From Methylorubrum extorquens (lineage in GTDB: Bacteria; Pseudomonadota; Alphaproteobacteria; Rhizobiales; Beijerinckiaceae): DNA of 64,000 nucleotides. The notes below the pieces were generated by a model. That model was not told the origin of the DNA, searched no databases, and was given only the letters and a program-made list of their open reading frames with translations. The position numbers and the translations under genes were made by a program. The stretch spans positions 688,001 to 752,000 of the forward strand of contig NZ_JALJXF010000001.1 of the NCBI RefSeq assembly GCF_024169925.1. Direction: 5' to 3'. This document shows positions 10,655 through 35,540 of this stretch, piece by piece. The number at the start of each line of letters is the position of its first letter. Position 1 is the stretch's first letter.

Positions 10655-10699
10655 AACGGAGGAGGGCTCCGGCGGGATGTGCCGGAGCCCTCCTCCGTT
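10655..10699 (+). terminator. rho-independent-type hairpin
   Basis: A perfect 19-base-pair stem (aacggaggagggctccggc and its complement) with a seven-base loop (gggatgt) sits directly after the small gene. The T-run is weak, so it might equally stabilise the 3' end or serve both strands, since a minus-strand fragment ends at 10718. Confidence 0.75.
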
Positions 10700-10717
10700 C
10701 CGGTTTGGCGATGTGCG

Positions 10718-10902: not shown

Positions 10903-10914
10903 GCCTCCGACCAG

Positions 10915-11175
10915 CTTCTCGTCGAGATGCGGGTGCAGCCCCAAGACATCGACAATGTGCCGTTCGGACAGAAGGCGGTGCTGCGCTTCCCGGCTTTCGA
11001 CACGTGCGCCAGACCGGAGATCGACGGCGAGGTGACCTGGGTCTCGGCGGACGTGACCCATGACCCCAAGACCGGGCAGAGTTACGAGACCGCGCGCATC
11101 CGTATCCGCGAGGATCAGAAGGAGTTCCTACAGGGCTTGCGTCTCTTTCTGGACATGCGGGGGGGGGATCCTTGA
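10915..11175 (+). pseudogene. HlyD-family membrane fusion protein, C-terminal fragment
   Basis: The frame reads LLVEMRVQPQDIDNVPFGQK, AVLRFPAF, EIDGEVTWVSADVTHDPKTG and QSYETARIRI. This is the beta-barrel segment of HlyD/PrtE-type adaptor proteins of type I secretion systems. Upstream the match stops abruptly near 10914. Only about 85 of about 430 residues remain, and the end (FLDMRGGDP) lacks the usual VPGMPVE tail. No partner ABC transporter of that type is adjacent, so it is a leftover. Confidence 0.65.
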
Positions 11176-11355
11176 CCCAGATCGGCGAGTGCTTCCGTTC
11201 TTTCCTATCTCACGCGCCCTCTGTCCGATCAGATCGCAAACTAGGCGGCTGGACGCCCCGAGCCTTCGCCAACCAGACTGTCATGGCCCGAACATTTGCG
11301 TAGGCCGTGGACGACACACAGGGGGCGGATCGAGGCCAGCCGACCACTTCTCTTA

Positions 11356-12222
11356 ATGAGAGGTGGGAAAAATGCAGTAAAACCACAGATTGGAAGTCCG
11401 GAAATCTTGCACATTCTCGTTCCAGGCCGGACATGTGGCACCTGTGCGGAGTGCTGCCGAGTTCTTGAGGTCAAGGCGCTTGCCAAGCCTGCCGGAACCA
11501 CATGCGTGCATCAGACAGGTGGGGCATGCAGCATCTACCGGGAGCGTCCGGATGCCTGCGCTAAGTGGCATTGCCTATGGCGCAAGATCGGCGCTCTCCC
11601 GGATGAGTTGCAACCGGACCGTTCCGGGGTGATGTTCTCGCTGGAAACGGCTCCTACGGCTGACGACCCTTTCTTCCGTGCCCGCATTGTCTGCCGGGCC
11701 GTGCAGGGGCCTGACGCCTTTGAGCGGTGGGAGGCTGTCGAGGCGATCGACATGTTCGTTCGAGAGGGCTCGCTGCCGGTCTGGACGGCCTTCGACTCTG
11801 TGGTCTCTCTGGTCTATCCAGAGCCTGCCGATGCGGATCGGCTGAGGCACGCCATCAGGCATCCGCACCCCGAGATGAACCCAGATTGTGCGGAAGAGGC
11901 TGCAACCTGGAGGTTGAGGCTCGGGTACGGTGATGGGCATCAAGAAGCCGACGGTTTGGAACAAAAGCCGCTCGGCGCGTTAAAGCCTCTGTTCGCCACA
12001 GGAGGAGCACACATGGCAACCGGTACGGTAAAGTGGTTCAACGAGACGAAGGGCTATGGATTCATCCAGCCCGACAACGGCGGCAAAGACGTGTTCGTGC
12101 ACATCTCGGCGGTCGAGCGCGCTGGCCTGCGCGATCTCGCTGAAGGGCAGAAGGTGTCCTACGAGGTTGAGATCGACCGGAAGAGTGGCAAAGAATCGGC
12201 CGGACAGCTTCAGGTTGCCTGA
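11356..12222 (+). CDS. YkgJ-type Cys-cluster protein read in frame into a cold-shock domain
   Basis: One uninterrupted frame of about 288 codons. The first 190 residues form a YkgJ-like (zinc or iron-sulfur cluster) protein: CGTCAECC near residue 30, then [19 protein letters not shown] and KWHC. The last 69 residues are a complete cold-shock protein that has its own ribosome-binding site and ATG at 12013. The linker (roughly residues 195-218) looks like untranslated leader rather than protein, so the YkgJ gene may have lost its stop codon by mutation. Alternatively it is a real fusion. An ATG at 11296 would add 20 residues. Confidence 0.6.
12013..12222 (+). CDS. cold-shock protein (CspA family)
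   Basis: A 69-residue single-stranded nucleic acid binding protein with five-stranded OB fold, normally an RNA chaperone. RNP1 is KGYGFIQP and RNP2 is DVFVHISA; the N-terminus [11 protein letters not shown] is typical. The start is set by AGGAGG six bases before ATG at 12013. It lies in the same frame as the upstream YkgJ-like ORF. A near-perfect hairpin follows at 12255. It can be translated independently of the upstream frame. Confidence 0.9.
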
Positions 12223-12254
12223 TCGTCGGGCGGCCCTGCGTCGCCAGTAAGAAA

Positions 12255-12285
12255 GCGGTGGGCTGGCTTCGCGTCAGCCTACCGC
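12255..12285 (+). terminator. hairpin after the cold-shock gene
   Basis: Arms gcggtgggctg (12255-12265) and cagcctaccgc (12275-12285) pair with one mismatch around a nine-base loop. No T-run follows, so it is a candidate only. Confidence 0.45.
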
Positions 12286-12408
12286 CTGGTGGCCGTTCGC
12301 CCTGTTCGGTTCCCCGATCCGATGAACTCGTGAAAAGTCCGGCCCTGCGACCAACTCTCCAGCTTGGGATCATCCGCCGAGGAAACGCGGTTGCCACCCC
12401 GCGTCCAC

Positions 12409-12672
12409 ATGGGTCGGAGCTTTTGCTTGTCCAATCCCTTCCTGACTTCCCTTCTGCTCGCGTACGAGGCGCAGCGGGTTATCGAACTCCGCTTGGTACG
12501 GCTCGCCTGGGGCGGTCAGGAAGGGTGGGCCGAGTTGAACGCGATGGTGTTCGAGAAGATCGCGGCGACCACCGAGGCGACTACGACGTTGCTGACCGGC
12601 GGTTCACATGAGGATGTGGTTGCCCGCTATCGGGAACATGTGGCTGCGAACGCGGAGCGTCTGAGAGCGTAG
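12409..12672 (+). CDS. hypothetical protein
   Basis: About 87 residues (SFCLSNPFLTSLLLAYEAQR, WAELNAMVFEKIAATTEATT, HEDVVARYREHVAANAERLR). The alternating Ala/Glu helices and conserved-looking LLLAYEAQRVIELRL segment resemble the short phasin-like or granule-associated proteins common in Methylobacterium, but I cannot assign the family. Start is uncertain: ATG at 12409 or 12364. It stands alone between the cold-shock gene and a leftward hypothetical gene. Confidence 0.55.
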   Translation: MGRSFCLSNPFLTSLLLAYEAQRVIELRLVRLAWGGQEGWAELNAMVFEKIAATTEATTTLLTGGSHEDVVARYREHVAANAERLRA

Positions 12673-12911
12673 CGTCCGCCCAGCTAAATCGGGAGATGCG
12701 CTGTCTTGGCCAGACCGGACGTACAGCGCTCCCCTGCGTGACGGTGCTGTACCCGACGCCGCAGTGAACTCGTCTGCCGTTTATGGCAGGACCTTCAGGG
12801 TACGATCTCGGCTGGTGAAGCCCGTTTCTTATCGCGGCGGTCGAGACATGGGCCTGTGCCCGCGAAAGCCGTTCTCGCCCGCTGGTGCGACCGGCGCATT
12901 CCCCCTTTCGC

Positions 12912-13244
12912 CTATCGGCCTTCAAGGCGGCAAGAGAGGGCTGTCTCGACGGGGCAGGAGGCGGGTGGCTCTCGATAGATCCGCACTCGAGGCGGGTCAT
13001 CGCCGTTTTCCAGCGCAATGCGACGCTCCTCCTCGGCGTAGTCCCAACTCCACTCGTCGGAGTGCTCCCCATCGAGGACGACGCCGGCCCGGCAGCCCCA
13101 GCCATGCTGGCGTGCGACCTGGGCCTGCTCGTAGGTGACGGTGAAATAGCCGAATTCGTGAAGCTCTCGATCGCGGCAGAGGATCTGACCGTCAGCCGTC
13201 ACGATATCGCCCGGCTTCGCACCATCCGGCATTGTCGATGTCAT
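12912..13244 (-). CDS. hypothetical protein
   Basis: A 110-residue acidic protein with even composition (DIVTADGQILCRDRELHEFG, YFTVTYEQAQVARQHGWGCR, SDEWSWDYAEEERRIALENG). The frame is better than anything on the opposite strand. No transmembrane segment, signal peptide or known motif. It is divergent from the hydrolase-domain gene at 13599. Function unknown. Confidence 0.6.
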   Translation of the reverse strand: MTSTMPDGAKPGDIVTADGQILCRDRELHEFGYFTVTYEQAQVARQHGWGCRAGVVLDGEHSDEWSWDYAEEERRIALENGDDPPRVRIYREPPASCPVETALSCRLEGR

Positions 13245-13598
13245 GGTTGGTTCCTACGCGACGCGCTTCAGCACGATTATACCGATCGATAGGGTACGTG
13301 GAACAGGTGGCAGAGCGTATTCCTGCAAAATAGTGGCGATCGGCATCGCCGCCGATGCGCTGCTCCCTGCTCGAGCCTTGGGCCGTAGTTACTGCGCCAG
13401 CCACCGAGAGAATGCCTCGGCGCGCTCGAGCTCTCATCCTGCCATCGAACGCGTGGTTCGAATCGATGAGCGTAAAAAGCCATCGCGCGGAGCCAACACA
13501 AAGAGAAAACGAGGCGCATCCCAGCATTCCTCTCGACGTCCTTCCCTTGACATGCTTGCTGAGAATACCGGCCAGCACGAGCCGGACAGGGAGCAAAC
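13245..13598. other. divergent intergenic region
   Basis: About 350 bases between two divergent genes. No protein-like frame found. A TTGACA hexamer at 13547-13552 could be a -35 element for the hydrolase gene, but no convincing -10 follows at the usual distance. Confidence 0.35.
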
Positions 13599-23046: not shown

Positions 23047-23728
23047 CCTCGGGTCTCCTTATTGGGATGCGCGATGACAGACCGTGGGTGCCGAGCATCA
23101 CGCACTGTTTTCAAATCGGCAGGCACGCATGGGCCAACGCTTAGCCATCAAATGGTAAAAAATTTCAACGATTCCACCTAGAGGCCGTTCTGCGGCGACG
23201 TGTGCTCCCTGTAGTTGTTGCCAAAGTTTTTGAAGTTGTCACTCGCTCGCTTTCCAGCGGTGATACAGAATTTTTACGGAACTCAACGATCATAAAATCT
23301 AAAAATATTATTTTACTCGGGTAAAACAGCGTGGTGCCGTAAATTCTGCTCGGAAGCGCCGCGTCCGGCTCTATTCGAACGTTGCGCCGGGAGGATGCGG
23401 ACTCCCTGGATTCTCGCCCCCTTCGCACTCCGTGCCGTGGACTGCCCGACTTCGTGGTGACGAGACCCGGCTGGCTCCGAGATGAACCGCGGGCGATCCT
23501 GAGATGCCCGGCACCCGTGTCCGGAATAATGATCTCGCTCTGCGGCGGCGTGAAGCGCCGGGCACGGATCAACGCCCGGCCGAACCCGGGCCTGACGGCC
23601 AAGGACGCGATCGGCATCGAGTTCGCGGCGCATCGAGGCGTGGCCGAACGTCGTTCCGCCGGTTGTGACGCCGCGTCACATAACGCCGTTTCGGGGCGAG
23701 CGGCGAGGATGGCCGATGTCGAGCGGGC
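23047..23728. other. long intergenic region, no secure gene
   Basis: About 680 bases. Open frames of up to 150 codons exist on both strands, but their composition (Arg/Pro/Ser rich) does not look like protein. A 45-base A+T-rich core near 23285-23330 (aaaatctaaaaatattattt) may be a promoter or UP element. It holds the control regions at the left end of the glycan cluster. Confidence 0.4.
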
Positions 23729-24397
23729 CTAACCCAGCTTGATGAACTTGGCTTTGCCTTGGAACGACCACGGCCCTTTCACGCCGAACTCGGCGCAGAA
23801 GGTGTCCACGGCACGCGTAACACCCGGAAAGCTGCCTCCGAGACGGTCGTAATCGTCGGCGATGAAAAGGCCGCCGGGTCGCAACACCGGCCACCACGCG
23901 CGGAGGTCGGCGGCGACCGATGCTTCTTCGTGGCCGGCGTCGAGATGGATCACGTCGGCGGTCACACCGCGAAGGCGCATCAGCTCGGCGGCATTTACCG
24001 AGTCGAGCGGCAGCGGCACCACCCGGTCGGCGAGCCCTTCGTGCAGAACATTGGCCAGGAAGGTGCGGTAGAGGCTGGGAAAGCCGTGCTCGGTGGCGAG
24101 TTCGAGGAAAAGGCTCTCATCCATCCAGTGGTCGACGGCGCCAAGCCAAGTATCGACCGCGACGACGGTGCCGTCGATCCCGTGCTCGGCCATCGTATGC
24201 GCGAGGTAGAGCGCGCTCGCTCCCTTCCACGTGCCGATCTCGACGACCACGCCGGGGCGGTGCTGGATCACCGCCTCCTCCAGATACGGGTGAACGCTGC
24301 GCCAGCCCTGAAGGTCGAGGGGCCTCAGGGTGTCCGGCGGATCAACGAAGGGATCGCGGCCATGCCATAGGGCGGCGATGATGTCCTGTCGGGTCAT
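23729..24397 (-). CDS. SAM methyltransferase, MTase-24 type, glycan cluster
   Basis: A 222-residue protein. The SAM-binding strand is VVVEIGTWKGASALYLAHTM (ExGxxxG), followed by VVAVDTWLGA, DVIHLDAGHEEASVAADLRA and LRPGGLFIADDY. This layout matches cephalosporin-hydroxylase-like/MTase-24 enzymes often found with polysaccharide genes, where they methylate sugars or tailor glycans. It is the last gene of the leftward half of the glycosyltransferase cluster, 43 bases after the GT-B gene. Substrate unknown. Confidence 0.75.
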   Translation of the reverse strand: MTRQDIIAALWHGRDPFVDPPDTLRPLDLQGWRSVHPYLEEAVIQHRPGVVVEIGTWKGASALYLAHTMAEHGIDGTVVAVDTWLGAVDHWMDESLFLELATEHGFPSLYRTFLANVLHEGLADRVVPLPLDSVNAAELMRLRGVTADVIHLDAGHEEASVAADLRAWWPVLRPGGLFIADDYDRLGGSFPGVTRAVDTFCAEFGVKGPWSFQGKAKFIKLG

Positions 24398-24440
24398 GTC
24401 TTCGGCTCGTAGAGGAGGCGGGGATCAACAGGACGCGGCG

Positions 24441-25496
24441 TCAGCCGGCATGGGCCGCTGCGTAGAGAGCCTCGCAGCGGTCGAGCCAACGATCGCGGGT
24501 GAACAGGCGGTGGACGCGCGCATGCGGCACGGTGCGTGGGATCGTCAGCGCCGTGCCGAGCGCCCGTGACAGGGCAGCGTCGTCCCCGGGCGAAACGAGA
24601 CATCCGGCCTCGCCGACGACCTCCTCTGCGGCGCCTCTCGTGAAACCGGCCACCGGCAGGCCGCAGGCCATCGCCTCAACCGCCACCAGACCAAACGGTT
24701 CGTCCCAGCACGGCGTGAACAGGAAGACGGAGGCGCGGCCGATCTCCCGTGCCAACTCCGGGCTGCCGAGATGGCCACCGTAACGGATCGTGCCGCCGAT
24801 GAACGGAGCGACCTGCGTCTCCCAGTATTCCAACTCCTCGATCGGGCCGAACAGGGTGAGGGGCAGACCGGCCTGCCGTGCGGCTCGAACCGCGAGATGG
24901 GTGCCTTTGATCGGCGCGATGCGCCCGCACCAGACGGCACTGCCGTCGCCGTGGGCCTGAAAGGGCCACAACGCCGGATCGATCCCGTTATGCAGCACCG
25001 AGACCTCGGGCGGCGCCCCGTCCGGCCACCAAGCCTGAGCCTGCGCCCGAGAGGTGACGGTGATCTGGTGGCCGGGGGTGACGCTGTCGTGCACGCACCA
25101 CCGCAAGGCGTCGTAGGGCGGCACGTGCAGCGAGGTCACCGTCGGCACGGCGGCCGTGCGGCGGCGCTCGAGCGGCAGGCGGCTCAGGCTGTTGTTGTGC
25201 AGCACGTCGAAGCCGCCGGCCGCGATCCGGTCGCAGGCGGCGGCGTAGCCCGCATCGACATGCGCCTTCAGCCCCGGATCGCCTCGATGCTCCAGCCCCG
25301 GAAAGCTCCGCTCGTGATGGACTGGGATCACCGGGTCGATCGAAAAGCGCGGGTCGCTGTCGCCGGCGGCGAACAGCACGACCTCGTGGCCGCGCGCCAG
25401 CAGCCCCTCGGCGAGGTGCCAAGTATAGGCTTCCAGCCCGCCGGCGAAGGGCGGGGCGATCGGGTGGCGCAGATGGGCGAGGAGCGCGATCCTCAC
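24441..25496 (-). CDS. GT-B glycosyltransferase (GT4 type)
   Basis: A 351-residue enzyme with N-terminal RIALLAHLRHPIAPPFAGGL (GGxE acceptor-binding loop with EAYTWHLAEGL) and a C-terminal donor domain SAVWCGRIAPIKGTHLAVRA followed by DEPFGLVAVEAMACGLPVAG, the EX7E-type motif of GT4. The start is the GTG at 25496, which overlaps the stop of the upstream GT2 gene by four bases (GTGA), so the two are translationally coupled. A longer frame to 25850 exists but runs antiparallel in the GT2 gene. Acceptor and donor unknown. Confidence 0.85.
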   Translation of the reverse strand: MRIALLAHLRHPIAPPFAGGLEAYTWHLAEGLLARGHEVVLFAAGDSDPRFSIDPVIPVHHERSFPGLEHRGDPGLKAHVDAGYAAACDRIAAGGFDVLHNNSLSRLPLERRRTAAVPTVTSLHVPPYDALRWCVHDSVTPGHQITVTSRAQAQAWWPDGAPPEVSVLHNGIDPALWPFQAHGDGSAVWCGRIAPIKGTHLAVRAARQAGLPLTLFGPIEELEYWETQVAPFIGGTIRYGGHLGSPELAREIGRASVFLFTPCWDEPFGLVAVEAMACGLPVAGFTRGAAEEVVGEAGCLVSPGDDAALSRALGTALTIPRTVPHARVHRLFTRDRWLDRCEALYAAAHAG

Positions 25497-26434
25497 GCCG
25501 TCACCGGCACGGAGGCCGGTTGCATGTCCCGTTCGCGGGCGCGCGCCTCTAAGTGCCGGATGACGGAAGCCGAGTTGGTGTAGGGCTGGTGGCTCTGCTG
25601 CCCGGTGAGCGCGAGATCCTCGGCGTCGGGCCGGCGCAGGATGCGGATCGGCTGCTCGGGCGTATCGTCGATCAGGCCCATCACCTTGAAGGCGTAGAGC
25701 CAGTGACCCATGGTGCGGTAGCCCCACTTGGCCTCGAACAGCTCCGCGTTGCGCACCACGCTGTCGAGGTGATGGATCGGCGGCATGTGGTGCGGGTGGT
25801 ACTGGTGATAGGCCAGCGCGCCCTTCATCCAGGCGATGGGCAGGCCGCACTGGTCCAGGATCTTGCCGAAATCGGTGTCCTCGCCGCCATAGCCGGTGTA
25901 GCGCTCGTCGAAGCCGCCGACAGCCTCGAACGTCGCCCGCCGGATCGCGAAGTTGAGCGACCAGAAGCAGCGGTAATCGTTACAGATCTCGATGCCTGCG
26001 GCCGGTGGACCGCGGCGGTCGGAATGCTTTTCCGCCACCATGGCGAGGTCGTCGTAGCGCCAGTCACCCGCGGTGGCGTGCTCGGGCAGGTGCAGCACCT
26101 CGCCCATCAGCAGACCGTCAAGTTCAGACAACGCCCGGGCGTAGTCGGCCACGAGGCCGGGCGCCGGGATGCAATCGACGTCGAGAAAGACGATGTTCTC
26201 CCCGCTCGCCGCCGCCACGCCCCGGTTGCGCGCGGCCGCCAGCGGCAGTTCCGAGCCCGATACCAGGATCTGGCGGACCGGGAACGCGACCTCGGGCAGG
26301 TCGTAGGGCGCGTCCTGCATGACGGCGATGATGAATTCGGCCGGCGGCCGCGTCTGGCGTTCCAGCCCGAGGAGGACGTTGCGCAGATGGGCGGGCCGTC
26401 CTTTGGCCAGGGTGACGACGGAAACGGTGGACAT
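25493..26434 (-). CDS. family 2 glycosyltransferase with galactosyltransferase-like C-terminus
   Basis: A 313-residue GT-A enzyme. Start SVVTLAKGRPAHLRNVLLGL, metal-binding DVD in IVFLDVDCIPAP, and the GGFDERYTGYGGEDTDFG block that resembles the C-terminal domain of beta-1,4-galactosyltransferases (Glyco_transf_7C). A His-rich stretch (YHQYHPHHMPPIHH) may bind metal. It is a paralogue of the gene at 27690-28580, with the same motif order. It is coupled to the downstream GT4 gene by the GTGA overlap. Confidence 0.87.
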   Translation of the reverse strand: MSTVSVVTLAKGRPAHLRNVLLGLERQTRPPAEFIIAVMQDAPYDLPEVAFPVRQILVSGSELPLAAARNRGVAAASGENIVFLDVDCIPAPGLVADYARALSELDGLLMGEVLHLPEHATAGDWRYDDLAMVAEKHSDRRGPPAAGIEICNDYRCFWSLNFAIRRATFEAVGGFDERYTGYGGEDTDFGKILDQCGLPIAWMKGALAYHQYHPHHMPPIHHLDSVVRNAELFEAKWGYRTMGHWLYAFKVMGLIDDTPEQPIRILRRPDAEDLALTGQQSHQPYTNSASVIRHLEARARERDMQPASVPVTA

Positions 26435-26483
26435 GCGGGGGGACAGGCTCCGGCAATCGGGAAAGTGGATCGAGGCGGCTCGC

Positions 26484-27638
26484 TCAGCCGGCGGCGGCGA
26501 CGGCGCGTAGCGGGACGGCGTCCGGTTCGTGGCCGGACGATCCGTCCTGCCAGAGCGCGTCGGTCAGCCCTTCGAGCCATCCGGCCGCCCGCGTGGCCGC
26601 GTCCGGTGCGTAGAGGCTGCGCAGGATGGTCCCGTCGAGGCTGCGGGCGCGGTCGAGAAGATCGCGCCATCCGTGGAAGTCGCCGGGCCAGTGGGGTGCT
26701 TGCACGGCGGCGCCAAGTTGGACCAGCGCCTCGGCCTTGCGGGTCTGCTCGCCGAAGTAACGCCATTCCGGCATCACGATGAGGCGCCCCGCAACGCGCG
26801 CGACTTCGTGCACCGTGTTGTCACCCGCCGAGGCGACCACGATGTCGGCCGCGGCGAGATAGTCGGTGACCGACGGCACCCAGCCGAGTTCGCGCAGGTT
26901 GGCGAAGTCGGTCTCGTGGCCCTCGCGATGGGTTGGCCCCAGCGTCAGCCAGAGTGCATCGGGCGCGGCGCGGGCGGCGACCGTCAGCGGCGCATAGGGC
27001 GTGCCGCTTCCCCCGCCGCCGGTGACCGCGACGACGATCTCGCGCCGTGGGTCGAGGCCGAGCCGAGCCCGCGCCTCGGCGCGATCCGGCACGCGATCGA
27101 TGCTGGTGCAGAGGCCGCCGCTGTAGAAGGTTTTGTCGCGCAGATGCGCCGGGTAGTCGTCCTGCTCCAGCCGCTCGTCGAAGGGGGCGAGCATCCCGAC
27201 GCAGGCCTCGTAGGCGCCGATATGGGCGATGTCGTTGCGGTCGCCGTGCATGCGGATCTGGACGGCGGGGACGCTGGCGATGCGCGCGAGCATCGCGATC
27301 TCCGCCGACACATCGACCACGAACAGACCGACCGCGCGCTCGTCGAGATGGTCGAGGATCTGGCGCATGGTCCGGCGCATCTCGGCGAGGCCCAGCGGCA
27401 CGCAGTGCATCACCGGCGGCGTCGGCTCCGCGTAGAGGCGCGGGGTGGGAACGGCCGCGCCGATCATGTCGGGGAGCGCCACGATCTCGATGTCGCGGGA
27501 AAATCCGTCGAACAGGTGCGGGCCGGCGGTCAGCACCGAGACCGGACGGTCGTGGGCGAACTCGACGGCCACCGCCATGGTGCGATTGGCATGGCCCCGG
27601 CCCTGATGATGAACAAAGAACGCGATGGGTTTCTTCAT
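26484..27638 (-). CDS. GT28/MurG-like glycosyltransferase
   Basis: A 384-residue GT-B protein. The N-terminal FFVHHQGRGHANRTMAVAVE carries the GxGHxxR pattern seen in MurG and monogalactosyl-diacylglycerol synthase relatives. The C-terminal half shows AVTGGGGSGTPYAPL, then ADIVVASAGDNTVHEVARVA and GRLIVMPEWRYFGEQ, a donor-binding arrangement like the UDP-sugar site of MurG. It sits between two GT2 paralogues on the same strand with gaps of about 50 bases. The substrate is not obvious; genuine MurG would be in a cell-wall cluster. Confidence 0.8.
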   Translation of the reverse strand: MKKPIAFFVHHQGRGHANRTMAVAVEFAHDRPVSVLTAGPHLFDGFSRDIEIVALPDMIGAAVPTPRLYAEPTPPVMHCVPLGLAEMRRTMRQILDHLDERAVGLFVVDVSAEIAMLARIASVPAVQIRMHGDRNDIAHIGAYEACVGMLAPFDERLEQDDYPAHLRDKTFYSGGLCTSIDRVPDRAEARARLGLDPRREIVVAVTGGGGSGTPYAPLTVAARAAPDALWLTLGPTHREGHETDFANLRELGWVPSVTDYLAAADIVVASAGDNTVHEVARVAGRLIVMPEWRYFGEQTRKAEALVQLGAAVQAPHWPGDFHGWRDLLDRARSLDGTILRSLYAPDAATRAAGWLEGLTDALWQDGSSGHEPDAVPLRAVAAAG

Positions 27639-27689
27639 GAGGCGGGGTTTCGAGACTCGGATCGGAAGGAGATCGGGAAGGCGTCGGGA

Positions 27690-28580
27690 CTAGGAGAAGA
27701 GGGCCTGCGGCCGCAGGGCGGCGGCGATCTCGGGCGCACTCGGCCGGCGCAGGACGCGGATCGCCGGCGCATCGGCATCCCACGCGATCAATCCGGCCGC
27801 GCGGAACTGTTCGAGCCAGTAGGTCATGCACCAGCGTCCGTGCCGCGCGTGAAAGCGTGTCGCGTTGGCGAGGATCGGCGCGAAATGCTGGAGGGGTGGC
27901 ACGTGAACGGGGTGGTGCTGGTGGTAGGCCCGCGCACCCGCGACCCAGAAGGTCGGCAGCCCCGACTCCGCGAGGCGGGCGGCGAGATCCGTCTCCTCGC
28001 CGCCATAGCCGACGTAACGCTCGTCCATGCCGCCGACTGCGCGCCACGCCTCGGCAGGCAGGGCGAAGGACAGGCCCCAGAGCTGCCCGGCATCGGGCTC
28101 TCGCCGCAGTCCGGACTCGGGCAGGAGAGGCCGGGCCGGGTGGGCACGGCCAAGCCGGTCGAGCACGGCGGAATCGGGAGCCGTGCCGCCCGTGATCGCG
28201 TCCGGCGGCAGGTAGAGCACCTCGCCGAGGAACAGGCCCCGCTCGGTGGCGGCGGCGTCCGTATAGGCGGACACCAGGGTCGGACCCGGGATGCAATCCA
28301 CGTCGAGGAAGACGAGGAGGTCTCCCGAGGCCGCCGCGGCCGCCCGGTTGCGTGCGGCGGCGAGCGGCATCGGCTCGCCCGGCACATGGAGGTGGCGCAC
28401 CGGGCAGCCCGGATCGGGCAGGTCGGGCTCCGGTTCCGGTTGCATCCAGGCGATCACCAGTTCGCGCGGAAGCACGGTCTGGCGGGCGAGCCCACGCATC
28501 AGGTTGCGCAGACGGTCGGCCCGGCCGCGGACCAGGGTCAGCACGCTCGGCGGAGGAGGGGGGCCCGCGTTGCCAGTCAC
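27690..28580 (-). CDS. family 2 glycosyltransferase, paralogue
   Basis: A 296-residue GT-A enzyme with the same motif order as 25493-26434: SVLTLVRGRADRLRNLMRGL, LVFLDVDCIPGPTL (DVD), GGMDERYVGYGGEETDLAAR, and the YHQHHPVHVPPLQHF His-rich segment. The shared ARNR... and DVDCIPGP blocks mark it as a duplicate rather than an unrelated GT2. It probably adds a second residue of a similar kind. It ends about 50 bases before the GT28-like gene and starts about 20 bases after the GT4-HAD gene. Confidence 0.85.
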   Translation of the reverse strand: MTGNAGPPPPPSVLTLVRGRADRLRNLMRGLARQTVLPRELVIAWMQPEPEPDLPDPGCPVRHLHVPGEPMPLAAARNRAAAAASGDLLVFLDVDCIPGPTLVSAYTDAAATERGLFLGEVLYLPPDAITGGTAPDSAVLDRLGRAHPARPLLPESGLRREPDAGQLWGLSFALPAEAWRAVGGMDERYVGYGGEETDLAARLAESGLPTFWVAGARAYHQHHPVHVPPLQHFAPILANATRFHARHGRWCMTYWLEQFRAAGLIAWDADAPAIRVLRRPSAPEIAAALRPQALFS

Positions 28581-28601
28581 GTGGATGCGCCGAGGCGGAG
28601 C

Positions 28602-30656
28602 TTACGACGCATAGGCCAGGGCCCGGCGGAAATGCAGGACGCCCTCGATGATGCCGCGGGCATGCGAGCTACGAGCGACGTAGGAGTGCTTGAGCGCGGC
28701 GTTGGTGGCGAGCCCGTCGGAGTAGTTGGCGACGATGATCGCCTGCGTCCGGGCACGCAGCATCTCGACGTCGTTGCCGGAATCACCGGCTACGAACACG
28801 GCTTGCTCGGGCAGGCCGTAGAGCGCGCGGACGTGATCGACCGCCGTCCCCTTCGAAGCCGATGCGGGCAGGACATCGAGGTAGCGGCCGTGGCTGTGGA
28901 TCACGTTGGCCGGGAGGCCCGCCTGCACAAGGCCATCGCGCACGCGATGCGCCGTCGCCTCGTCGCCGAAGAAGCTCAGCTTGTGCGCGCGCTGCTCGAG
29001 GGGGCCCTGCGGGACCAGCCCGTCGAGACGGCTCAGCGCCGCGCCGACCGCTCCCCTGTCCCAGGCGTACGAGACCACCTCGCGCCATGCCGCGTCGGCC
29101 GTGTAGGTCACGCCGTTGGCATCGAGATGATAGATCTCCGAGCCGACCGAGGTGATCATCACCTGCGGTCGCGGGCTCTCCTGCTGCTCCAGCACCGCCA
29201 TCGCGCTGTGGAAGGAGCGACCGGTGGCGACGCCGAAGGCCAGCCCCATTTGGCGGCTTCGCCAGCGCCGGAACGTCGCCAGCGCGGATTCGCATCCGAC
29301 AAGCGTGTTGTCGATATCGCAGATCAGGAGCTGGCGCGGGGTCTGTAGAGGCGGGTTGCGCGCGATCAGTGCGCCGAGGAGGTCGTGATAGCGGGCGGCG
29401 TGCCGATCCCAGTCATAGGCCGCCGCCGCGCGGGCGCCGCCCGCGACGCAGCGGGCGCGGAAGGGGGCATCCGTGAGGATGTGAAGGCAGGCGGCGGCGA
29501 TCGCCGCAGGTGCCCGCGGATCGACGAGCAGCCCGTTGCCGCAGGTCTCGACGATGTCGTTGGGTCCGCCGCTGTCGGTGGCCACCAGCGGCAAGCCGGC
29601 GGCGGACGCTTCCAGAAGGGTCAAGCCGAACGGCTCGTTGAGGGCCGGATTAACGAAGACGCCGCCGCGCTCCCGCGCATAGGCGTAGATCGCCGGCACG
29701 TCCTCCGGGCGGTGCGTCTTGGGATAGGCGACGCGGCCGTAGAGATCGTAGCGGTCGATGAGCACGAGCAGGTCGCGCATGGTCGCGGCCATGTCGCCGT
29801 CGAGCCGGTCGATGTCGTCGCGGGTGCCGGCGACGATCACGAGGTTGGCCCGTGCCTGGAGATCCGGGCTCTCGCCGTAGGCCGCCACCAGGGCCGCCAG
29901 ATTCTTGCGCGCCACCGGCCGAGCCAGCGCCAGCACCGCCGGCTTGCCCGGATCGTGCAGGAACCGGCCGATCGCCGCATCGATCCGGGGATGCGGACGG
30001 CTCTGCGCGAAGCGTGCGAGATCGCTGCCCGGCGGCAGGACGCGGGCGCGGCCGGGGTCGTAGGCGGTGTAGCCCGCATACTGAACCTCGGCCTCGTCGC
30101 GCGAGGAGGCGATGACGAGGCTCGCGCGCGCCAGGGCCGCCTCCTCGGTGGCGATCCGGCGCAAGAGTTCGGGGGAGCCCTCGGCATCGCCGCCGACCAT
30201 CGCCGCCTTCACCCGCCCGAGCGAATGGGCCGTGAACACGAAGGGGATGCCGAGCCGGTCCTCGACGATCCCCGCGACCGCGGCGGCATCCGCGTAATGC
30301 GCGTGGACGATATCGGGCGCGCGGGGCTGCCGGCCGATCCAGGCGATGAGATTCTCGGCGTAGCTCTCGACCTCGCCGTGCATCGCCTCCTTCGAGCGGT
30401 AGCCCGGCGACGCGCTCGCGAGCCGCACGAGCTCGACCTTGTCGGAGACCCGCTCTTCGGGCAGGGCGTAGTCGGGGCCGGGCGGGCCCTCGAACCGACG
30501 CGTCGCCATGACGATCCGCGCGATCCTGGCGTCCTGCGCCGAGGCACCGACGAGATCGAGCAGGTATCGGATATGCCCGCCGGTGTCGGAAGTGAGGCCG
30601 TAGACGACATCACGGCCGCGCAGGCAACCTTGTAGAGCAATGTGCAGAACGAACAT
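28602..30656 (-). CDS. sucrose-phosphate-synthase-like GT4 fused to HAD phosphatase
   Basis: A 684-residue bifunctional-looking enzyme. Residues 1-440 are GT4: GHIRYLLDLVGASAQ at the acceptor site, HAHYADAAAVAG, DPGKPAVLALARPVARKNLA and EPFGLTLLEASAAGLPLV. Residues 455-680 are a HAD-IIB domain: ICDIDNTLVG (DxD nucleophile), ATGRSFHSAMAVLE, and VAGDSGNDVEMLRA. This is the layout of bacterial sucrose-6-phosphate synthase with a fused phosphatase, which would make sucrose from UDP-glucose and fructose-6-P. Because it is inside a glycosyltransferase cluster, another acceptor is possible. The ATG at 30656 is preferred over 30770. Confidence 0.85.
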   Translation of the reverse strand: MFVLHIALQGCLRGRDVVYGLTSDTGGHIRYLLDLVGASAQDARIARIVMATRRFEGPPGPDYALPEERVSDKVELVRLASASPGYRSKEAMHGEVESYAENLIAWIGRQPRAPDIVHAHYADAAAVAGIVEDRLGIPFVFTAHSLGRVKAAMVGGDAEGSPELLRRIATEEAALARASLVIASSRDEAEVQYAGYTAYDPGRARVLPPGSDLARFAQSRPHPRIDAAIGRFLHDPGKPAVLALARPVARKNLAALVAAYGESPDLQARANLVIVAGTRDDIDRLDGDMAATMRDLLVLIDRYDLYGRVAYPKTHRPEDVPAIYAYARERGGVFVNPALNEPFGLTLLEASAAGLPLVATDSGGPNDIVETCGNGLLVDPRAPAAIAAACLHILTDAPFRARCVAGGARAAAAYDWDRHAARYHDLLGALIARNPPLQTPRQLLICDIDNTLVGCESALATFRRWRSRQMGLAFGVATGRSFHSAMAVLEQQESPRPQVMITSVGSEIYHLDANGVTYTADAAWREVVSYAWDRGAVGAALSRLDGLVPQGPLEQRAHKLSFFGDEATAHRVRDGLVQAGLPANVIHSHGRYLDVLPASASKGTAVDHVRALYGLPEQAVFVAGDSGNDVEMLRARTQAIIVANYSDGLATNAALKHSYVARSSHARGIIEGVLHFRRALAYAS

Positions 30657-30713
30657 CAAGCGTTCGTCGTGCCGAGACGATCCACGCCGATTGTATTGAG
30701 TAAGGTGCAACAC

Positions 30714-31754
30714 GTGATCCGCGTCGCCCAAGTCGCCCCGAACATTTTCCCCGTTCCCCCCGAACACCATGGCGGCACCGAGAGGATCGTGAACGATCTG
30801 TCCGTGGCGCTGCGAAGCTTAGGCATAGACGTAACGCTGTTCGCCTCATCAGACAGTGCGACAGACTTGCCGCGCGTCGGCGATCACCCGAGCCTTGCGG
30901 CTTTGGAACGTCGGAACCGGCAGGTGCCCCCCGGGGTTCCGGCGGCTCTCGATGCGTTGCAACTGGAAGCGCTGCGTCTGCGGCTCGACAGGTTCGACAT
31001 CGTGCATTGCCACGGCGAGTTCGCCCACGCGGCGCTGCTGGGCCCGCGTCGGCGCCGGAGCCTGACGACGGTGCATTGGCGCGTGGACGAACTCGACCGG
31101 GCGCTGTTCTTCGCCGGCTTCCCCGATCTGCCGGTGGCGGCGATCTCGGCGGCACAGGAGGCCGGCATTCCGGCCTCGAACCGGGCAGGCGTCGTGCATC
31201 ACGGGATCGCCCGGGACCGCTACACATTCCGGCCGGAGCCCGGCGCGCACGTCGCCTTCGTCGGCCGGATGACCGACCAGAAGCGCCCGGACACCGCGAT
31301 TCGTGTCGCCCGCGCCGCCGGCCTGCCGATCCGGCTCGGTGGTACGATCGACGTCGGCAACCCGGACTATTTCGAGCGGAGCGTGCGCCCCTTGCTCGGG
31401 CCCGATGCGACCTATCTCGGGCCCATCGACGACCGGGCGAAAGGCGCACTGCTCGGTGGCGCTCGCGCGCTGCTGTTCCCGATCGACTGGCCCGAGCCCT
31501 TCGGCCTCGTGATGATCGAGGCCATGGCCTGCGGCACGCCGGTGATCGCCTGGAATCGCGGCTCGGTGCCCGAGATCGTCGAGGACGGGGTGACGGGTTT
31601 CGTCGTCGCCTCGGAGGCCGAAGCGGTCGCGGCGCTGGCCCGGATCGGAGGGCTCGACCGCGCGGTGGTGCGCCGCCGCTTCGAGGAGCGGTTCACCGCC
31701 GAGCGCATGGCACGCGACTACATCGCGCTCTACCGCCGTCTTCTCGCCGCCTGA
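30714..31754 (+). CDS. GT4-type glycosyltransferase
   Basis: About 346 residues from the GTG at 30714 (VIRVAQVAPNIFPVPPEHHG then GTERIVNDLSVALRSLG). The acceptor loop, HVAFVGRMTDQKRPDTAIRV and EPFGLVMIEAMACGTPVIAW (EX7E) are standard for GT4. A longer start at 30642 would overlap the divergent GT4-HAD gene, so GTG is preferred. The stop TGA overlaps the ATG of the next gene (TGATG), showing translational coupling. It is the first gene of the rightward half of the cluster. Confidence 0.85.
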   Translation: MIRVAQVAPNIFPVPPEHHGGTERIVNDLSVALRSLGIDVTLFASSDSATDLPRVGDHPSLAALERRNRQVPPGVPAALDALQLEALRLRLDRFDIVHCHGEFAHAALLGPRRRRSLTTVHWRVDELDRALFFAGFPDLPVAAISAAQEAGIPASNRAGVVHHGIARDRYTFRPEPGAHVAFVGRMTDQKRPDTAIRVARAAGLPIRLGGTIDVGNPDYFERSVRPLLGPDATYLGPIDDRAKGALLGGARALLFPIDWPEPFGLVMIEAMACGTPVIAWNRGSVPEIVEDGVTGFVVASEAEAVAALARIGGLDRAVVRRRFEERFTAERMARDYIALYRRLLAA

Positions 31755-32938
31755 TGCGCACCGCGCTTCTGGCTTGGGACTACCCGCCGGCGCCGAGCGG
31801 CCTCTCGACGGCGGCGCGCGAGATCGCCGAGAGCCTCGCTGCGGCCGGCGCCGAGGTCACCGTCTTCACCCTCGACCGCACCGGTCGCGAGCGGGTTGGC
31901 GGCGTCACGGTCGAAGGGCTCGCCCTGCCGTCCATCGGTCGCCTGGCGCGCCTGCGCCTGTGGGGCTCGGCCGGGCATCTGGCCGCGCCGCTCGCGTTCC
32001 GGCGGGCGGTTCTGGCCGCCCATGCGCGGGCGCCCTTCGACGTGATCGAGGCGACGAACTGGTACGCTCCCGCCGTGCTGCTCGCCCGCCGTGGCGACCT
32101 GCCCCTGGTGACGCGCAGCTCGACCCCGGCCGCGTTCACGCGTGGGGTTGGCGCCGGCCTGCGCGACCGCCTCGATGGATGCACGGCCGATGCGCTGGAG
32201 CGTGCCCAGGCACGGGGTAGCGCCGGCCTCATCGCCAACACGGCCGAGCACGGGGCGGTGATCGCGCGGGCCTATCGCCTTTCGGGACACCAACCCTCCG
32301 CCGTGATCGGCCTCAGCCTGCCGCCGGACATCCTGAGAAGCGCCCGCACCGCCGCCTATCCGGAGACGGATGCCCCGCTGTGCCTGCTCTTCGTCGGACG
32401 GGCGGAGGCGCGCAAAGGGTTCGACGCGCTCCTCGGCGCGGTCGTGATCCTCGCAGCCGAGCAGGCAACGGGCGCCCTGCCGCCGTTCCGGCTCGACCTC
32501 GTCGGGGTGCCGCCGGACGACATGCCGGCGGATCTGCCCGACGCGGCGCGGCCCTATGTCCGCGCCCGCGGCCGGATCGATGCGGCGGCGCTGGCCCAGG
32601 CCTATGCGGACGCCCATGCGGTGCTTGCGCCGTCCCGCTACGAGAGCTTCGGCCTCGTCTATCAGGAGGCCATGGCCTATGGCCGTCCGGTGGTGGCCTG
32701 CGCGGAGGATGCGAGCGCCCGCGCCTTCGTCGGCGCGTCCGGGGCAGGCCCTCTCGCGCGGGCCGCCACCGGGCCGGCGCTCGCGGATGCCCTGCGCCCG
32801 CTTCTCGTCGATCCCGACCTGCGCCGCGCCTACCGCATACGAGCTCTCGCAGCGGCTGGGCGCTTCGACAGGGCGAGCCTTGGGCGCGAGACCCTGGCGC
32901 TTTACGAGGCTGCGATCAGAGCGGCGCGGCAGAAGTGA
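31754..32938 (+). CDS. GT4-type glycosyltransferase
   Basis: A 394-residue GT-B enzyme. It begins RTALLAWDYPPAPSGLSTAA (acceptor loop) and has CLLFVGRAEARKGFDALLGA, then YESFGLVYQEAMAYGRPVVA in the donor domain. The first E of the EX7E motif and the GR...KG pattern are both present. The ATG shares its A with the stop of the previous gene, so expression is coupled. It is followed by about 70 bases before the convergent GT2 gene. Donor and acceptor unknown. Confidence 0.85.
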   Translation: MRTALLAWDYPPAPSGLSTAAREIAESLAAAGAEVTVFTLDRTGRERVGGVTVEGLALPSIGRLARLRLWGSAGHLAAPLAFRRAVLAAHARAPFDVIEATNWYAPAVLLARRGDLPLVTRSSTPAAFTRGVGAGLRDRLDGCTADALERAQARGSAGLIANTAEHGAVIARAYRLSGHQPSAVIGLSLPPDILRSARTAAYPETDAPLCLLFVGRAEARKGFDALLGAVVILAAEQATGALPPFRLDLVGVPPDDMPADLPDAARPYVRARGRIDAAALAQAYADAHAVLAPSRYESFGLVYQEAMAYGRPVVACAEDASARAFVGASGAGPLARAATGPALADALRPLLVDPDLRRAYRIRALAAAGRFDRASLGRETLALYEAAIRAARQK

Positions 32939-33007
32939 TCGGCTTTGCCGGACCACCAGGGCTTTGCCCTGGACCCACCAAAGGTCTCGACCTTCGGAAT
33001 CCAAAAC

Positions 33008-33991
33008 TCAGTCGCGGTAGGGGCGAAGCAGGGCTTCCGCTTCCTCCAGGCGGCCACGGCCGGGATCCAGGGCCTCGTAGTGGCGCGAGCGGGCCGCGAC
33101 ATGGGCGCGGTTCAGACGATGCTCGATTCCACCGTGGAGGGTGATGAAGCTCTCGGGCCAGCCGCCGGCGAGTTGCGGCCGCTCGTGCACCCGGCCGGCG
33201 TAGCGGAGATCGGTGCGGTTCAAGCGGTACTGCACGTCCGGGTAGACATCCGAGAGAATGCCATCGACGCGATTGGAGCGAGTCAGCCCGATCGAGCGGA
33301 CGGCGCCGGCCTCGGCCAGTGCGACGAGCGCGGGCAGGAGGCGGCCGGTTGCCGGATCGAGCGTCTCGTCGGCGTCGAGCTGCAGCATCCAGGCATGGCG
33401 AGCCAGAGCCTGGAGCGCATTGCGCTGCGCGGCGAAGTCGCCGGCCAGCGGCCGGGCGGCCACGCGCACCGCCCCCGCCGGAAACCCGGCAACCGCCACA
33501 GCGCCGGGCGGCGTGATGTCTGTATCGAGCAGGATCGTGACGTCGTCGGTCCAGTCCGCTTGCGCCGGCAGGCTCGCGAGCACCGCATCGACCTCGGACG
33601 GACGACAAAGCAGACCGAGCGAGACCGAGAGTTTATCCGAGGCATCAAGGGTGTACAGGGCGGCACGGGCGGCGCGCTCGTCATGGGGATGGAGCAAGGC
33701 AGCGCGGCCCTCGGGGTCGAGCGGGCGGGTGCCGCGTCCGAACCGGGTGGCGGCGGTGCGGAGGGTATAGAGGTCGAGGCCGTAGGGCGCGTCCGGATCG
33801 GAGACGAAGGCCGATTTCGTGAGAGCATCGGCCAGATGCGCGCGGCATCCGGATGCGTCCGCCTCGCGTTCGAGCAGGACGCCGCATGAGGCGCAGGCGA
33901 GCGGAAACAGCCGCCGACGCCCATCCGAGTAGATCAGGTGCCGCTCGCTCGGCACGAGCATGTCGGCCGCGCAGACGAAGCATCGGCGCAT
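33008..33991 (-). CDS. family 2 glycosyltransferase with N-terminal Cys-pair domain
   Basis: A 327-residue protein. Residues 1-45 hold two Cys pairs (CFVCAADM and CASCGVLL), a zinc-ribbon-like knuckle unusual for GT2. The catalytic part resembles WaaE/KdtX-like enzymes: DVTILLDTDITPPG, AAQRNALQALARHAWMLQLD (QRN...DAD), NRVDGILSDVYPDVQYRLNR and GRVHERPQ. WaaE relatives add glucose to lipopolysaccharide core. The start ATG at 33991 overlaps the ATG of the divergent GT29-like gene in the tetramer CATG. A frame to 34279 is open but not protein-like. Confidence 0.8.
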   Translation of the reverse strand: MRRCFVCAADMLVPSERHLIYSDGRRRLFPLACASCGVLLEREADASGCRAHLADALTKSAFVSDPDAPYGLDLYTLRTAATRFGRGTRPLDPEGRAALLHPHDERAARAALYTLDASDKLSVSLGLLCRPSEVDAVLASLPAQADWTDDVTILLDTDITPPGAVAVAGFPAGAVRVAARPLAGDFAAQRNALQALARHAWMLQLDADETLDPATGRLLPALVALAEAGAVRSIGLTRSNRVDGILSDVYPDVQYRLNRTDLRYAGRVHERPQLAGGWPESFITLHGGIEHRLNRAHVAARSRHYEALDPGRGRLEEAEALLRPYRD

Positions 33992-34733
33992 GGTCGTCAC
34001 TCCGGCATCCTTGATTTCCGGCAAAGGTCTGGTTGCGCCGAACCGGCGCCTTACCTCCGCTGCTCCGCAACCTTCAAACCCCGAGTCCCTGCCGCAAGTG
34101 CCCGCCGACGTCGATCTTCCCGAGTCAGACCGCTTCGCTTTGCCCCCCGCCGCGTCCCTGGCGGTTGTCGGCAATGCGCCGGAAACCGACGGCGTGGCGC
34201 GGGCGATCGATGCGGCGGATTGCGTGGTGCGCTTCAACAACGCGGCGGGCTTCGGTGGCCGCACCGGCTCGCGGGTCACCCATCTCGCCCTGGTGAATCG
34301 CGGCGGGCAAATGCGGGAATGGCTGGCAGACCCTCAATTTCTCGAGCGCCCGGTGGTGCGGGCGGCTCAGGCCTTCATCCTGCCCTTTCCGATGCTGCCG
34401 GCGGAGAAGAATGGCCCTAAGCCGATCTGCTGGACCCGCGAGGCCTTGGCGCTGCTGCGCCCCACGGGCCGGCCGATCCACATCCTGCCCGAAGATCTCC
34501 ACGAGCGCGCACGCCGCTTGCTGGCGCCCCGGACGGACGGGCGCCCGAACCCGAGCACCGGCTTCTTGGTGACGCTCGCGCTCCTGAACGATCGCCCTCG
34601 CGATGCCGCTCCAGCGCAGGCCTATGGCTTCGGATTCGCGGGCTGGCCCGGACATCCCTGGGCCGCCGAGCGCGCGTGGTTCGCTGAAGCCCAGGCGGCC
34701 GGGCGCCTGTGCTTGCACCCTCTCGCAAAGTGA
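33990..34733 (+). CDS. GT29 (sialyltransferase)-like protein
   Basis: About 247 residues. SLAVVGNAPETDGVARAIDA, then ADCVVRFNNAAGFGGRTGSR resemble the large sialyl motif (VVGN...VIRFN) and NPSTGFLVTLALLN resembles the small motif (PSTG). A few alphaproteobacterial proteins of this type are annotated as urease accessory or GT29-like. It would transfer a nonulosonic acid or another CMP-sugar, but no CMP-sugar synthase is in the window. Starts possible at ATG 33960 or 33990 or GTG 34098; no good ribosome site decides. A short gap separates it from the next gene. Confidence 0.7.
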   Translation: MVVTPASLISGKGLVAPNRRLTSAAPQPSNPESLPQVPADVDLPESDRFALPPAASLAVVGNAPETDGVARAIDAADCVVRFNNAAGFGGRTGSRVTHLALVNRGGQMREWLADPQFLERPVVRAAQAFILPFPMLPAEKNGPKPICWTREALALLRPTGRPIHILPEDLHERARRLLAPRTDGRPNPSTGFLVTLALLNDRPRDAAPAQAYGFGFAGWPGHPWAAERAWFAEAQAAGRLCLHPLAK

Positions 34734-34743
34734 TCCGCTCATC

Positions 34744-35388
34744 ATGTCCACGCTGATCACGGTGCTGAAGAGCGGCGGCCGCTACGACGCGATCTGGGTC
34801 GAGCGGCTGGCCCGCGGTGTGCGCCGCCACGCGCCGGCCTTCACGCGGATCCTCTGCCTCACCGATCTGCCGCTCGACGTCGAGGGCGTCGAGCGTGTGC
34901 CCTTGCGCCACGACTGGCCGGCTTGGTGGGCGAAGATGGAGGCGTTCCGCCCCGGTCTCACTCAGGGCACGACGCTGCTCTGCGACCTCGACACCGTCTT
35001 CACCGGCGCTGCCGACGCGCTGGCCGAGCCCGGCCTCGCGGCAATGGAGGACTACTTTCACAAGGGCCGCTTTTCCAGCGCTCTGCTGCGCTGGTCCGGA
35101 GACGAACTTGCCGGGCTCTACGAGCGCTTCGCGGCTGCGCCCGAGCGCTGGATGAAAGCGGGGTCCTGCGGCCCGGTCCCCAACGCCGTGCACGGCGATC
35201 AGGTCGTCATCGATCATCTGTTGCGCGAGCAGGGCGTATGTCCGCCCTTCTTCCAAGACATCGCACCGGACCTGCTCGACTTCTACGATCCCCGACGCGC
35301 CGCCCACGGCCCGATCGTGATCTTCATCGGGGAATCCAAGCCCGACACCGTTCGCGGACCGGTCCACGAGGCCTGGGCCGACGCTTGA
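34744..35388 (+). CDS. GT-A glycosyltransferase-like protein
   Basis: A 214-residue protein with a DxD motif in TTLLCDLDTVFTGAADALAE, a strand ILCLTDLPLDVEGVERVPLR before it, and AVHGDQVVIDHLLREQG near the end. This pattern is shared with small GT8- or capsule-type glycosyltransferases annotated as glycosyltransferase/capsular biosynthesis proteins. It lies ten bases after the GT29-like gene in the same direction. It is the last gene of the glycan cluster on the right. Confidence 0.7.
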   Translation: MSTLITVLKSGGRYDAIWVERLARGVRRHAPAFTRILCLTDLPLDVEGVERVPLRHDWPAWWAKMEAFRPGLTQGTTLLCDLDTVFTGAADALAEPGLAAMEDYFHKGRFSSALLRWSGDELAGLYERFAAAPERWMKAGSCGPVPNAVHGDQVVIDHLLREQGVCPPFFQDIAPDLLDFYDPRRAAHGPIVIFIGESKPDTVRGPVHEAWADA

Positions 35389-35409
35389 GGCGCAGGGAAG
35401 CGCAGCACG

Positions 35410-35540
35410 TCCCGCCCGAGGGGAAGGACGTCATGTCGTTGGCCTCAAACTCATCCAGATCCAGTGAAAGGGCAGGGGAGGCCCACGACACCGGCCGAAC
35501 GGCGGCGGCGTTGCAGAGCACCTCGATCCGCCGGCCGCGG
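35410..35540 (-). pseudogene. possible short-chain dehydrogenase scrap
   Basis: The minus frame gives RRIEVLCNAAAVRPVSWASP followed by LSLDLDEFEAND. The pattern resembles the NNAG region and following helix of short-chain dehydrogenases (VLVNNAGV...DGFE). No start, catalytic YxxxK or flanking domain is visible. If real it is a 40-residue relic at the right edge of the glycan cluster. Confidence 0.3.

Follow-up and report, generated by a model that had tools for sequence, protein, structure and literature searches.

Sucrose-phosphate synthase (SPS) and sucrose-phosphate phosphatase (SPP) activities are carried in some bacteria by a single fused protein, and the family is able to change its substrate. 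In Agrobacterium, an SPS homologue and an SPP-like phosphatase, encoded by two separate genes, produce the non-reducing disaccharide mannosylfructose from fructose-6-phosphate by way of its phosphate. MshA, a GT4 glycosyltransferase of mycothiol synthesis, is another enzyme acting on a phosphorylated acceptor. In the structural account of the Thermosynechococcus SPS (TeSPS), the fructose hydroxyls are reported to be bonded by Ala48 and Gln51, and His158 and Glu331 to be essential (PMC7264703). Here a 64,000-nucleotide stretch of Methylorubrum extorquens DNA (contig NZ_JALJXF010000001.1, positions 688,001 to 752,000; the window) is considered, in which an eleven-gene block, A to K, contains an SPS-like gene, F. 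An earlier, sequence-only reading had described a glycosyltransferase cluster of unknown product and had overlooked the C-terminal S6PP/HAD-IIB phosphatase of F. The block is read here as a cytosolic oligosaccharide pathway whose soluble product is primed by the SPS-like enzyme; this interpretation is placed ahead of a sucrose route and of a surface glycan, while its own likelihood is put slightly under even.

The SPS-like protein F and its acceptor loop

The predicted domain layout of F is that of the bacterial SPS-SPP. The phosphatase domain matches PF05116 with 206.2 bits against a cut-off of 20.3 (this and the other family scores of F were taken from a longer open reading frame, ORF), and the best solved relatives are the Halothermothrix SPS (2r60, E 1.5e-40) and the Synechocystis sucrose-phosphatase (1s2o, 4.2e-33). 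The HSLG and NEPFGL motifs, whose residues are taken by motif and alignment as the probable equivalents of TeSPS His158 and Glu331, are invariant in 81 of 81 close relatives, in which the sucrose-phosphatase motifs (DxDxT, Lys and GDSGND) are also invariant or nearly so. The Gln that contacts fructose-6-phosphate in SPS, placed in register through the GGQ motif of the 6kih alignment, is His in F. The resulting DTGGH motif is found in all 81 close relatives, the window included, and His occupies the position in 119 of the 120 listed relatives of the Sphingomonas parapaucimobilis F, the remaining one having no such stretch; the remaining SPS-like groups in the alignment, namely the canonical fusions, the Halothermothrix-like proteins and the split glycosyltransferase (GT)/phosphatase pairs, have Gln there.

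The proteins were named H-type or canonical after residue 28 (His or Gln). Among 49 representatives below 80% identity, 29 carry His and 20 carry Gln, counts of 29/29 and 20/20 within groups that are true by definition, as the groups were sorted by this residue; the other positions, the tree, the curated cut-offs and the neighbouring genes are not. Eight further positions are group-specific, five of them within the first 22 residues, and position 9 shows the opposite change, with 26 Gln and 3 Gly in the His group and 19 His and 1 Asp in the Gln group. Identity over residues 1-35 is 0.73 among His-group proteins, 0.75 among Gln-group proteins and 0.36 between the groups, compared with 0.54, 0.56 and 0.41, respectively, over the rest of the GT domain. 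A tree of 60 sequences built on GT residues 30-430, and thus without the diagnostic loop, places all 29 H-type proteins in a single clade (support 0.917). Since the acceptor loop is remodelled in comparison with that of true SPS, F may accept a different phosphorylated sugar in place of fructose-6-phosphate, or may bind fructose-6-phosphate in another way; whatever the sugar, the remodelling points to a changed acceptor or a changed acceptor geometry.

The curated NCBI models separate the two groups as well. F scores 431.5 against TIGR02472 (cut-off 576) and 188.7 against TIGR02471 (cut-off 209.75), thus missing both. Of six H-type proteins compared, L105, L118, L182 and L183 likewise fall below both cut-offs, and L130 falls below the first, TIGR02471 not being listed for it at the E limit of 1e-40; all five canonical controls (L125, L184, L185, L196 and L203) lie above both.

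F might instead be an ordinary sucrose-phosphate synthase/phosphatase in which the loop has only drifted, with sucrose as the osmolyte and the other GTs either using a sucrose primer or being passengers. The domain order, catalytic residues and phosphatase domain kept in F agree with this explanation, as do the lack of any group-specific phosphatase position at thresholds of 90% (H-type) and 85% (canonical) and the ability of His also to bond a sugar hydroxyl. In addition, the JGI label of several relatives of the S. parapaucimobilis F, most of which carry DTGGH, is 'sucrose-phosphate synthase'. The failure of H-type proteins at equivalog-domain cut-offs that every canonical control passes speaks against it, together with the retention of Gln even in the sucrose synthases of PDB alignments and with a linkage to GT2 and GT28 genes, described below, that is absent from the sampled canonical genes. 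On balance the sucrose explanation is considered unlikely, although it deserves serious attention.

Organization of the block

All eleven ORFs of the sequence-only reading are present between 23729 and 35388, in two arms that diverge, as it had stated, at 30.66-30.71 kb, and both of the coupled starts it had noticed (GTGA and TGATG) were recovered. The starts of F, G, I and J were picked among in-frame codons. The features are as follows.

23729-24397, minus strand: A, class I S-adenosylmethionine-dependent methyltransferase (Methyltransf_24; PF13578, 76.6 bits), accessory
24441-25496, minus strand: B, GT4 (Pfam), with a GTGA overlap with C
25493-26434, minus strand: C, GT2/GT7C (Pfam), paralogue of E
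26484-27638, minus strand: D, GT28/GT1-type GT-B glycosyltransferase (Pfam GT28)
27690-28580, minus strand: E, GT2/GT7C of galactosyltransferase type (PF02709, 38.6 bits), directly downstream of F
28602-30656, minus strand: F, H-type SPS-SPP-like fusion and proposed initiating enzyme, with GT4 at about residues 1-430 and HAD-IIB/S6PP at about 440-680
30657-30713, no strand: divergent spacer between F and G, 57 bp by coordinates
30714-31754, plus strand: G, GT4 (PF00534, 74.5 bits), divergent partner of F
31754-32938, plus strand: H, GT4 (PF13692, 66.6 bits, from a scan of the longer ORF 31007-32938), TGATG-coupled to G
33008-33991, minus strand: I, divergent GT2-like protein with N-terminal Cys pairs (GT2, 14.1 bits, below the cut-off of 23.3)
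33990-34733, plus strand: J, GT29-like protein (GT29, 12.7 bits, below the cut-off of 23), start at 33960 or 33990
34744-35388, plus strand: K, conserved protein with a DLD motif and no Pfam GT family

Pfam supports the earlier description of two GT2 proteins with a galactosyltransferase-type C-terminus (C and E), of one GT28 protein (D) and of a methyltransferase (A). The GT4 count had been three and is corrected to four domains (B, F, G and H). The GT29-like label suits J in part: its own score is too low, while a relative that is 50% identical (L096_6) passes the cut-off with 28.8 bits. The GT2 label of I is not upheld by its score, and among solved structures I has a weak match to 7msk (E 0.0024); the 'DxD GT-A' label of K was a motif reading, K matching no GT family in Pfam and no relative among solved structures.

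No membrane span was predicted in A-K by hydropathy, the highest 19-residue Kyte-Doolittle mean being 1.72. The sequence-only reading had noted that the block holds no Wzx, Wzy, ABC transporter or ligase, and indeed none of the eleven proteins matches a transporter, polymerase, ligase or flippase family in Pfam, Wzx families having been looked for in the block proteins and not genome-wide. A search for sigma-70-like sites in 23600-35500 found none, with 0.7 expected.

Conservation and gene neighbourhood

Three samples of loci were compared. The genome-contig set comprises the best 80 of 175 hits, with up to 10 kb on either side of F, and includes 52 Methylobacterium-group loci (one from a Beijerinckiaceae metagenome-assembled genome, and several cut by contig ends) and 28 of other genera. 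The phylum sample draws on 30 genomes out of 31 that matched, the one left out having no locus, and includes ten H-type genes, three of which belong to the window's genome and two congeners; the order sample holds 11 full-length fused proteins, shorter SPS relatives being left out, and five of its six H-type members come from the window's genus. Phylum and order loci span about 1.5 kb on each side of F, and the absence of a neighbour refers to that distance. Gene presence at the loci of the genome-contig set was scored by tblastn (E 1e-15), unannotated loci received gene calls from a GC3 script, with some starts or fusions wrong, and the locus and neighbour counts are not phylogenetically independent.

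The gene order K-J-I-H-G-F-E-D-C-B is kept in 42 of the 52 Methylobacterium-group loci, with A along in 29, and the EttA gene that flanks the block in the window is present in 1 of the 52; since a ten-gene order is conserved although the flank is not, the block is more than a chance assembly. In 78 of 80 loci E is the next gene after F; the other two loci are from Ancylobacter. In one of these (L117, 6553-14752) F is flanked by a GMC oxidoreductase and an ORF for a sugar transporter, and a DegT aminotransferase is found farther upstream; the second is L121.

At least one of C, D and E is found near F in 78/80 loci of the genome-contig set, and in the smaller samples this neighbourhood follows the type of F, being present at 10/10 H-type and 0/20 canonical genes in the phylum sample and at 6/6 and 0/5, respectively, in the order sample. 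The canonical genes L148 and L149 have no C, D or E neighbours in 19-kb stretches, and one of them (L148) adjoins sucrose synthase. The neighbours of the H-type L118 were considered as sucrose-uptake genes, a candidate that was dropped, as they encode phosphate transport, a PhoD phosphatase, a TonB receptor and a GH2 protein.

Among 111 congeners F is present in 68 and absent from 43. An orthologue of D (at least 84% identical) accompanies F in 67 of the 68 and occurs in none of the 43; the exception is G219, whose assembly is 85% complete. D-type paralogues of about 34-42% identity occur in 29 of the 43 congeners without F. In another congener (G207:C2:6187203-6189253), F is broken into two frames that overlap around residue 400-409, possibly by a natural frameshift or an assembly error.

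The remaining genes differ in their reach. G is present in 74 of the 80 loci (52/52, 10/10, 2/6 and 10/12 by group), K in 44/52 Methylobacterium-group loci and 2/28 others, and A in 30/52 and 0/28. Methylation as a core property, suggested by the methylated oligosaccharide of the sequence-only reading, is thus not supported; a conserved multi-GT unit with no export genes in the block, plausibly making an undescribed oligosaccharide, is supported. Six Sphingomonas loci all contain F, E, D, H and I, with G in two, and ten of twelve loci of other genera have E, D and G.

A fusion of a PIG-L deacetylase with a NodS-like methyltransferase stands beside the cluster in Tianweitania, Aureimonas and a relative (L096 12921-16532, L104 13805-17605 and L147 15024-16409 by family search; L101 14090-16520 by similarity). 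L096 also has an acyl-CoA-dehydrogenase-like gene, with a homologue in L104, and these neighbours suggest a possible amino-sugar modification module.

A portable core and its plasmid operons

The comparison shows a recurring, portable core consisting of F, D, a GT2/GT7C gene (E and/or C) and a GT4 gene (G and/or B). This core was found in Aureimonas, Sphingomonas, Halomonas and Kushneria, and as a plasmid operon in other Alphaproteobacteria. Plasmid records with a match numbered 29, of which ten, one of them unannotated, were examined. An F-D-C-B operon is carried by S. parapaucimobilis, Sulfitobacter, Pontibrevibacter, Roseomonas and Paracoccus sediminicola (L208, L209, L212, L213 and L215). 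Variants include a sulfotransferase gene between C and a reversed GT4 gene in Croceicoccus, F-D-C followed by treZ, treY and glgX in Paracoccus aestuarii, and, in P. marcusii, F together with D, C and B whose annotation is fragmented; a Methylobacterium bullatum plasmid has the window's own J to B arrangement. In Croceicoccus, Pontibrevibacter, P. aestuarii and P. sediminicola the operon has sulfotransferase genes nearby, rfbCBDA lies 3' of it in Sulfitobacter, and a pyruvyltransferase gene lies 3' in S. parapaucimobilis, where every junction of F-D-C-B-pyruvyltransferase is a 4-bp overlap. Wherever a feature is listed in these records, the F relatives are labelled 'HAD-IIB family hydrolase' or 'HAD family hydrolase'.

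The window's C shares 72% and its B 70% identity with the respective S. parapaucimobilis protein, so that the Methylobacterium block looks like a G-F-E-D core to which the C-B pair of a sister operon was added, a history that we infer from these identities. The absence of F from 43 of 111 congeners and the location of the core on some plasmids fit an accessory function.

Proposed pathway and alternative explanations

With an SPS-SPP-like fusion as its anchor, the unit would be expected to use a sugar-phosphate acceptor and to yield first a disaccharide freed of its phosphate. F would take a hexose from a nucleotide-sugar donor and attach it to a sugar phosphate; its phosphatase domain would then strip the phosphate, making the step irreversible and leaving a free disaccharide. 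The GT2, GT28 and GT4 enzymes would extend this primer to a short oligosaccharide, which lineage-specific genes would decorate: H, I, J, K and methyltransferase A in the window, sulfotransferase, pyruvyltransferase or other genes elsewhere. It may be speculated that the product serves the cell as a soluble protectant against osmotic stress or desiccation. A bolder proposal, which is held to be rather doubtful, is that H-type F defines a new class of disaccharide-phosphate synthases with an acceptor other than fructose-6-phosphate, and that the four-gene core makes previously unseen soluble, variably decorated oligosaccharides, spread by plasmids, in leaf-dwelling and marine bacteria.

A possible link to the general stress response comes from Sphingomonas melonis Fr1, in which genes #3505-3509 form an EcfG-dependent operon (PMC6599016). 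There a lacZ fusion confirmed that the glycosyltransferase gene #3505 depends on EcfG, and #3506-3509 each overlap the gene before them and bear the labels predicted glycosyl transferase, predicted glycosyltransferases, glycosyltransferase and exopolysaccharide biosynthesis protein. JGI labels several D relatives 'predicted glycosyltransferase'. Judged by labels and overlaps, and not by the Fr1 sequence, this operon is fairly likely to be the same as F-D-C-B-pyruvyltransferase of L208.

Several observations weigh against a stress-related soluble oligosaccharide. Sulfation, pyruvylation, dTDP-rhamnose and GT29-like tailoring are commonest on surface glycans, and the presence of such tailoring genes near the core calls above all for caution. 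This genome has GH13 genes grouped at 3.256-3.271 Mb, taken as glycogen/trehalose genes, so that another solute may exist. The four core genes are not inseparable, since both Ancylobacter loci have an H-type F without any other cluster gene and Paracoccus yeei, where Ala occupies the acceptor position, has just F and a GT4 gene. Close to the donor site, residue 248 is Val in H-type and Asp in canonical proteins, and the donor may therefore differ too. The phosphatase-domain tree is less clear-cut: a single canonical protein falls inside the smallest clade with all 29 H-type proteins (support 0.82), and no pure H-type clade has more than 26 members. As for regulation, the EcfG box GGAAC-N16/17-CGTT does not occur in the window, and with spacings of 15-18 it is found there only at 2246 and 11958, far from the block. 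Across 19 stretches two boxes were found (at L122 20746 and at L147 6618; the second is 165 bp away from D, on the opposite strand), and the Sphingomonas loci scanned have none at the cluster. Moreover, #3505 is termed a putative indirect EcfG target in PMC6599016; indirect EcfG control may apply to the cluster.

The tailoring genes, GT29-like J among them, and the sheer number of GTs would fit a surface glycan or glycolipid (a branch of the lipopolysaccharide, LPS, core, a capsule repeat or a glycosylated lipid) exported by genes elsewhere. Wzy_C and Poly_export genes, each in four places, do lie elsewhere in the genome, and D belongs to the GT28/GT1 type, whose GT-B fold is common to MurG and sterol glucosyltransferase. 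Among A-K, however, no flippase, polymerase or ligase family is matched and no Wzx/Wzy capsule or O-antigen locus is recognisable; the phosphatase of F should remove the sugar phosphate, which is the chemistry of a soluble disaccharide; and four Halomonas/Kushneria loci hold, of the window genes, only G-F-E-D. With regard to the LPS core, the block shows GT4, GT2, GT28 and weak GT29 matches only, and the GT9 heptosyltransferase family PF01075 has no match in this genome, rated 100% complete, a search by which heptose-less cores are undetectable. As the genome has no GT9, an LPS-core role is conceivable on gene content, but no assignment to a known pathway such as the LPS core, which the sequence-only reading had named as its refutation, resulted. 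A surface product is accordingly viewed as improbable without being far-fetched. A merger of unrelated GT genes without a common product, to which the resemblance of C and B to a different operon lineage and the paralogous sets C/E and B/G might lend colour, is highly improbable given the order kept without its EttA flank, the joint presence or absence of F and D and the overlapping starts.

With the proposed cytosolic pathway, primed by an SPS-like enzyme, a GT block of no assigned role becomes a definite hypothesis in which one enzyme can be tested. If it holds, the hydrolase or sucrose-phosphate synthase labels on F relatives would mislead metabolic models of common leaf bacteria. A core making a stress oligosaccharide would give molecular access to the way in which such bacteria withstand drying and salt, and one making a surface glycan would represent an unusual phosphatase-fused, sugar-phosphate-primed route. 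No description of the cluster in Methylobacterium was found in the open-access literature, as judged by titles and abstract openings, subscription papers being mostly outside this search; the accessible parts of PMC4814048 do not mention the cluster genes, and the glycosyltransferases reported as strongly induced in planta in the available text of PMC9123166 could not be tied to the cluster and are not taken as evidence.

Comparison with known systems

The cluster is best described as a real and widespread variant of known chemistry, uncharacterised so far as was found. The Fr1 genes #3505-3509 match the L208 operon in labels and overlaps, and no product is named for them in the accessible sections of PMC6599016. 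In the window's own genome, a second GT locus (L123, G000:C1:4862000-4881999, at 6571-12255) carries paralogues of B, C and D and differs from the block in having no F, with a PIG-L deacetylase and a further GT2 instead. A PIG-L gene also occurs in L176 of the same genome (G000:C1:3288000-3307000, at 9013-13254), adjoining genes for a GT4, a xylose-isomerase-like TIM barrel and YcaO, a possible small-molecule cluster.

MshA (3c48) has Met at the position aligned with the acceptor Gln and, unlike F, uses a different acceptor and has no fused phosphatase. F is also unlike the Agrobacterium mannosylfructose enzymes in being fused. Split GT/phosphatase pairs from five genomes (L135-L139, L142 and L143), which may be of the mannosylfructose kind, are about 27-32% identical and keep DTGGQ, for which reason the mannosylfructose route was rejected as the nearest match to F. 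The canonical fused SPS-SPP (TIGR02472 plus TIGR02471) shares with F the two-domain layout, the catalytic His and Glu and the phosphatase motifs, with about 37-42% identity in the order sample. It departs from F in the acceptor loop, which reads SxHGL...DTGGQ in the canonical proteins and IALQGC...DTGGH in F, in scoring above both curated cut-offs, and in lacking, among the sampled genes, the GT2/GT28/GT4 partners with which F is found.

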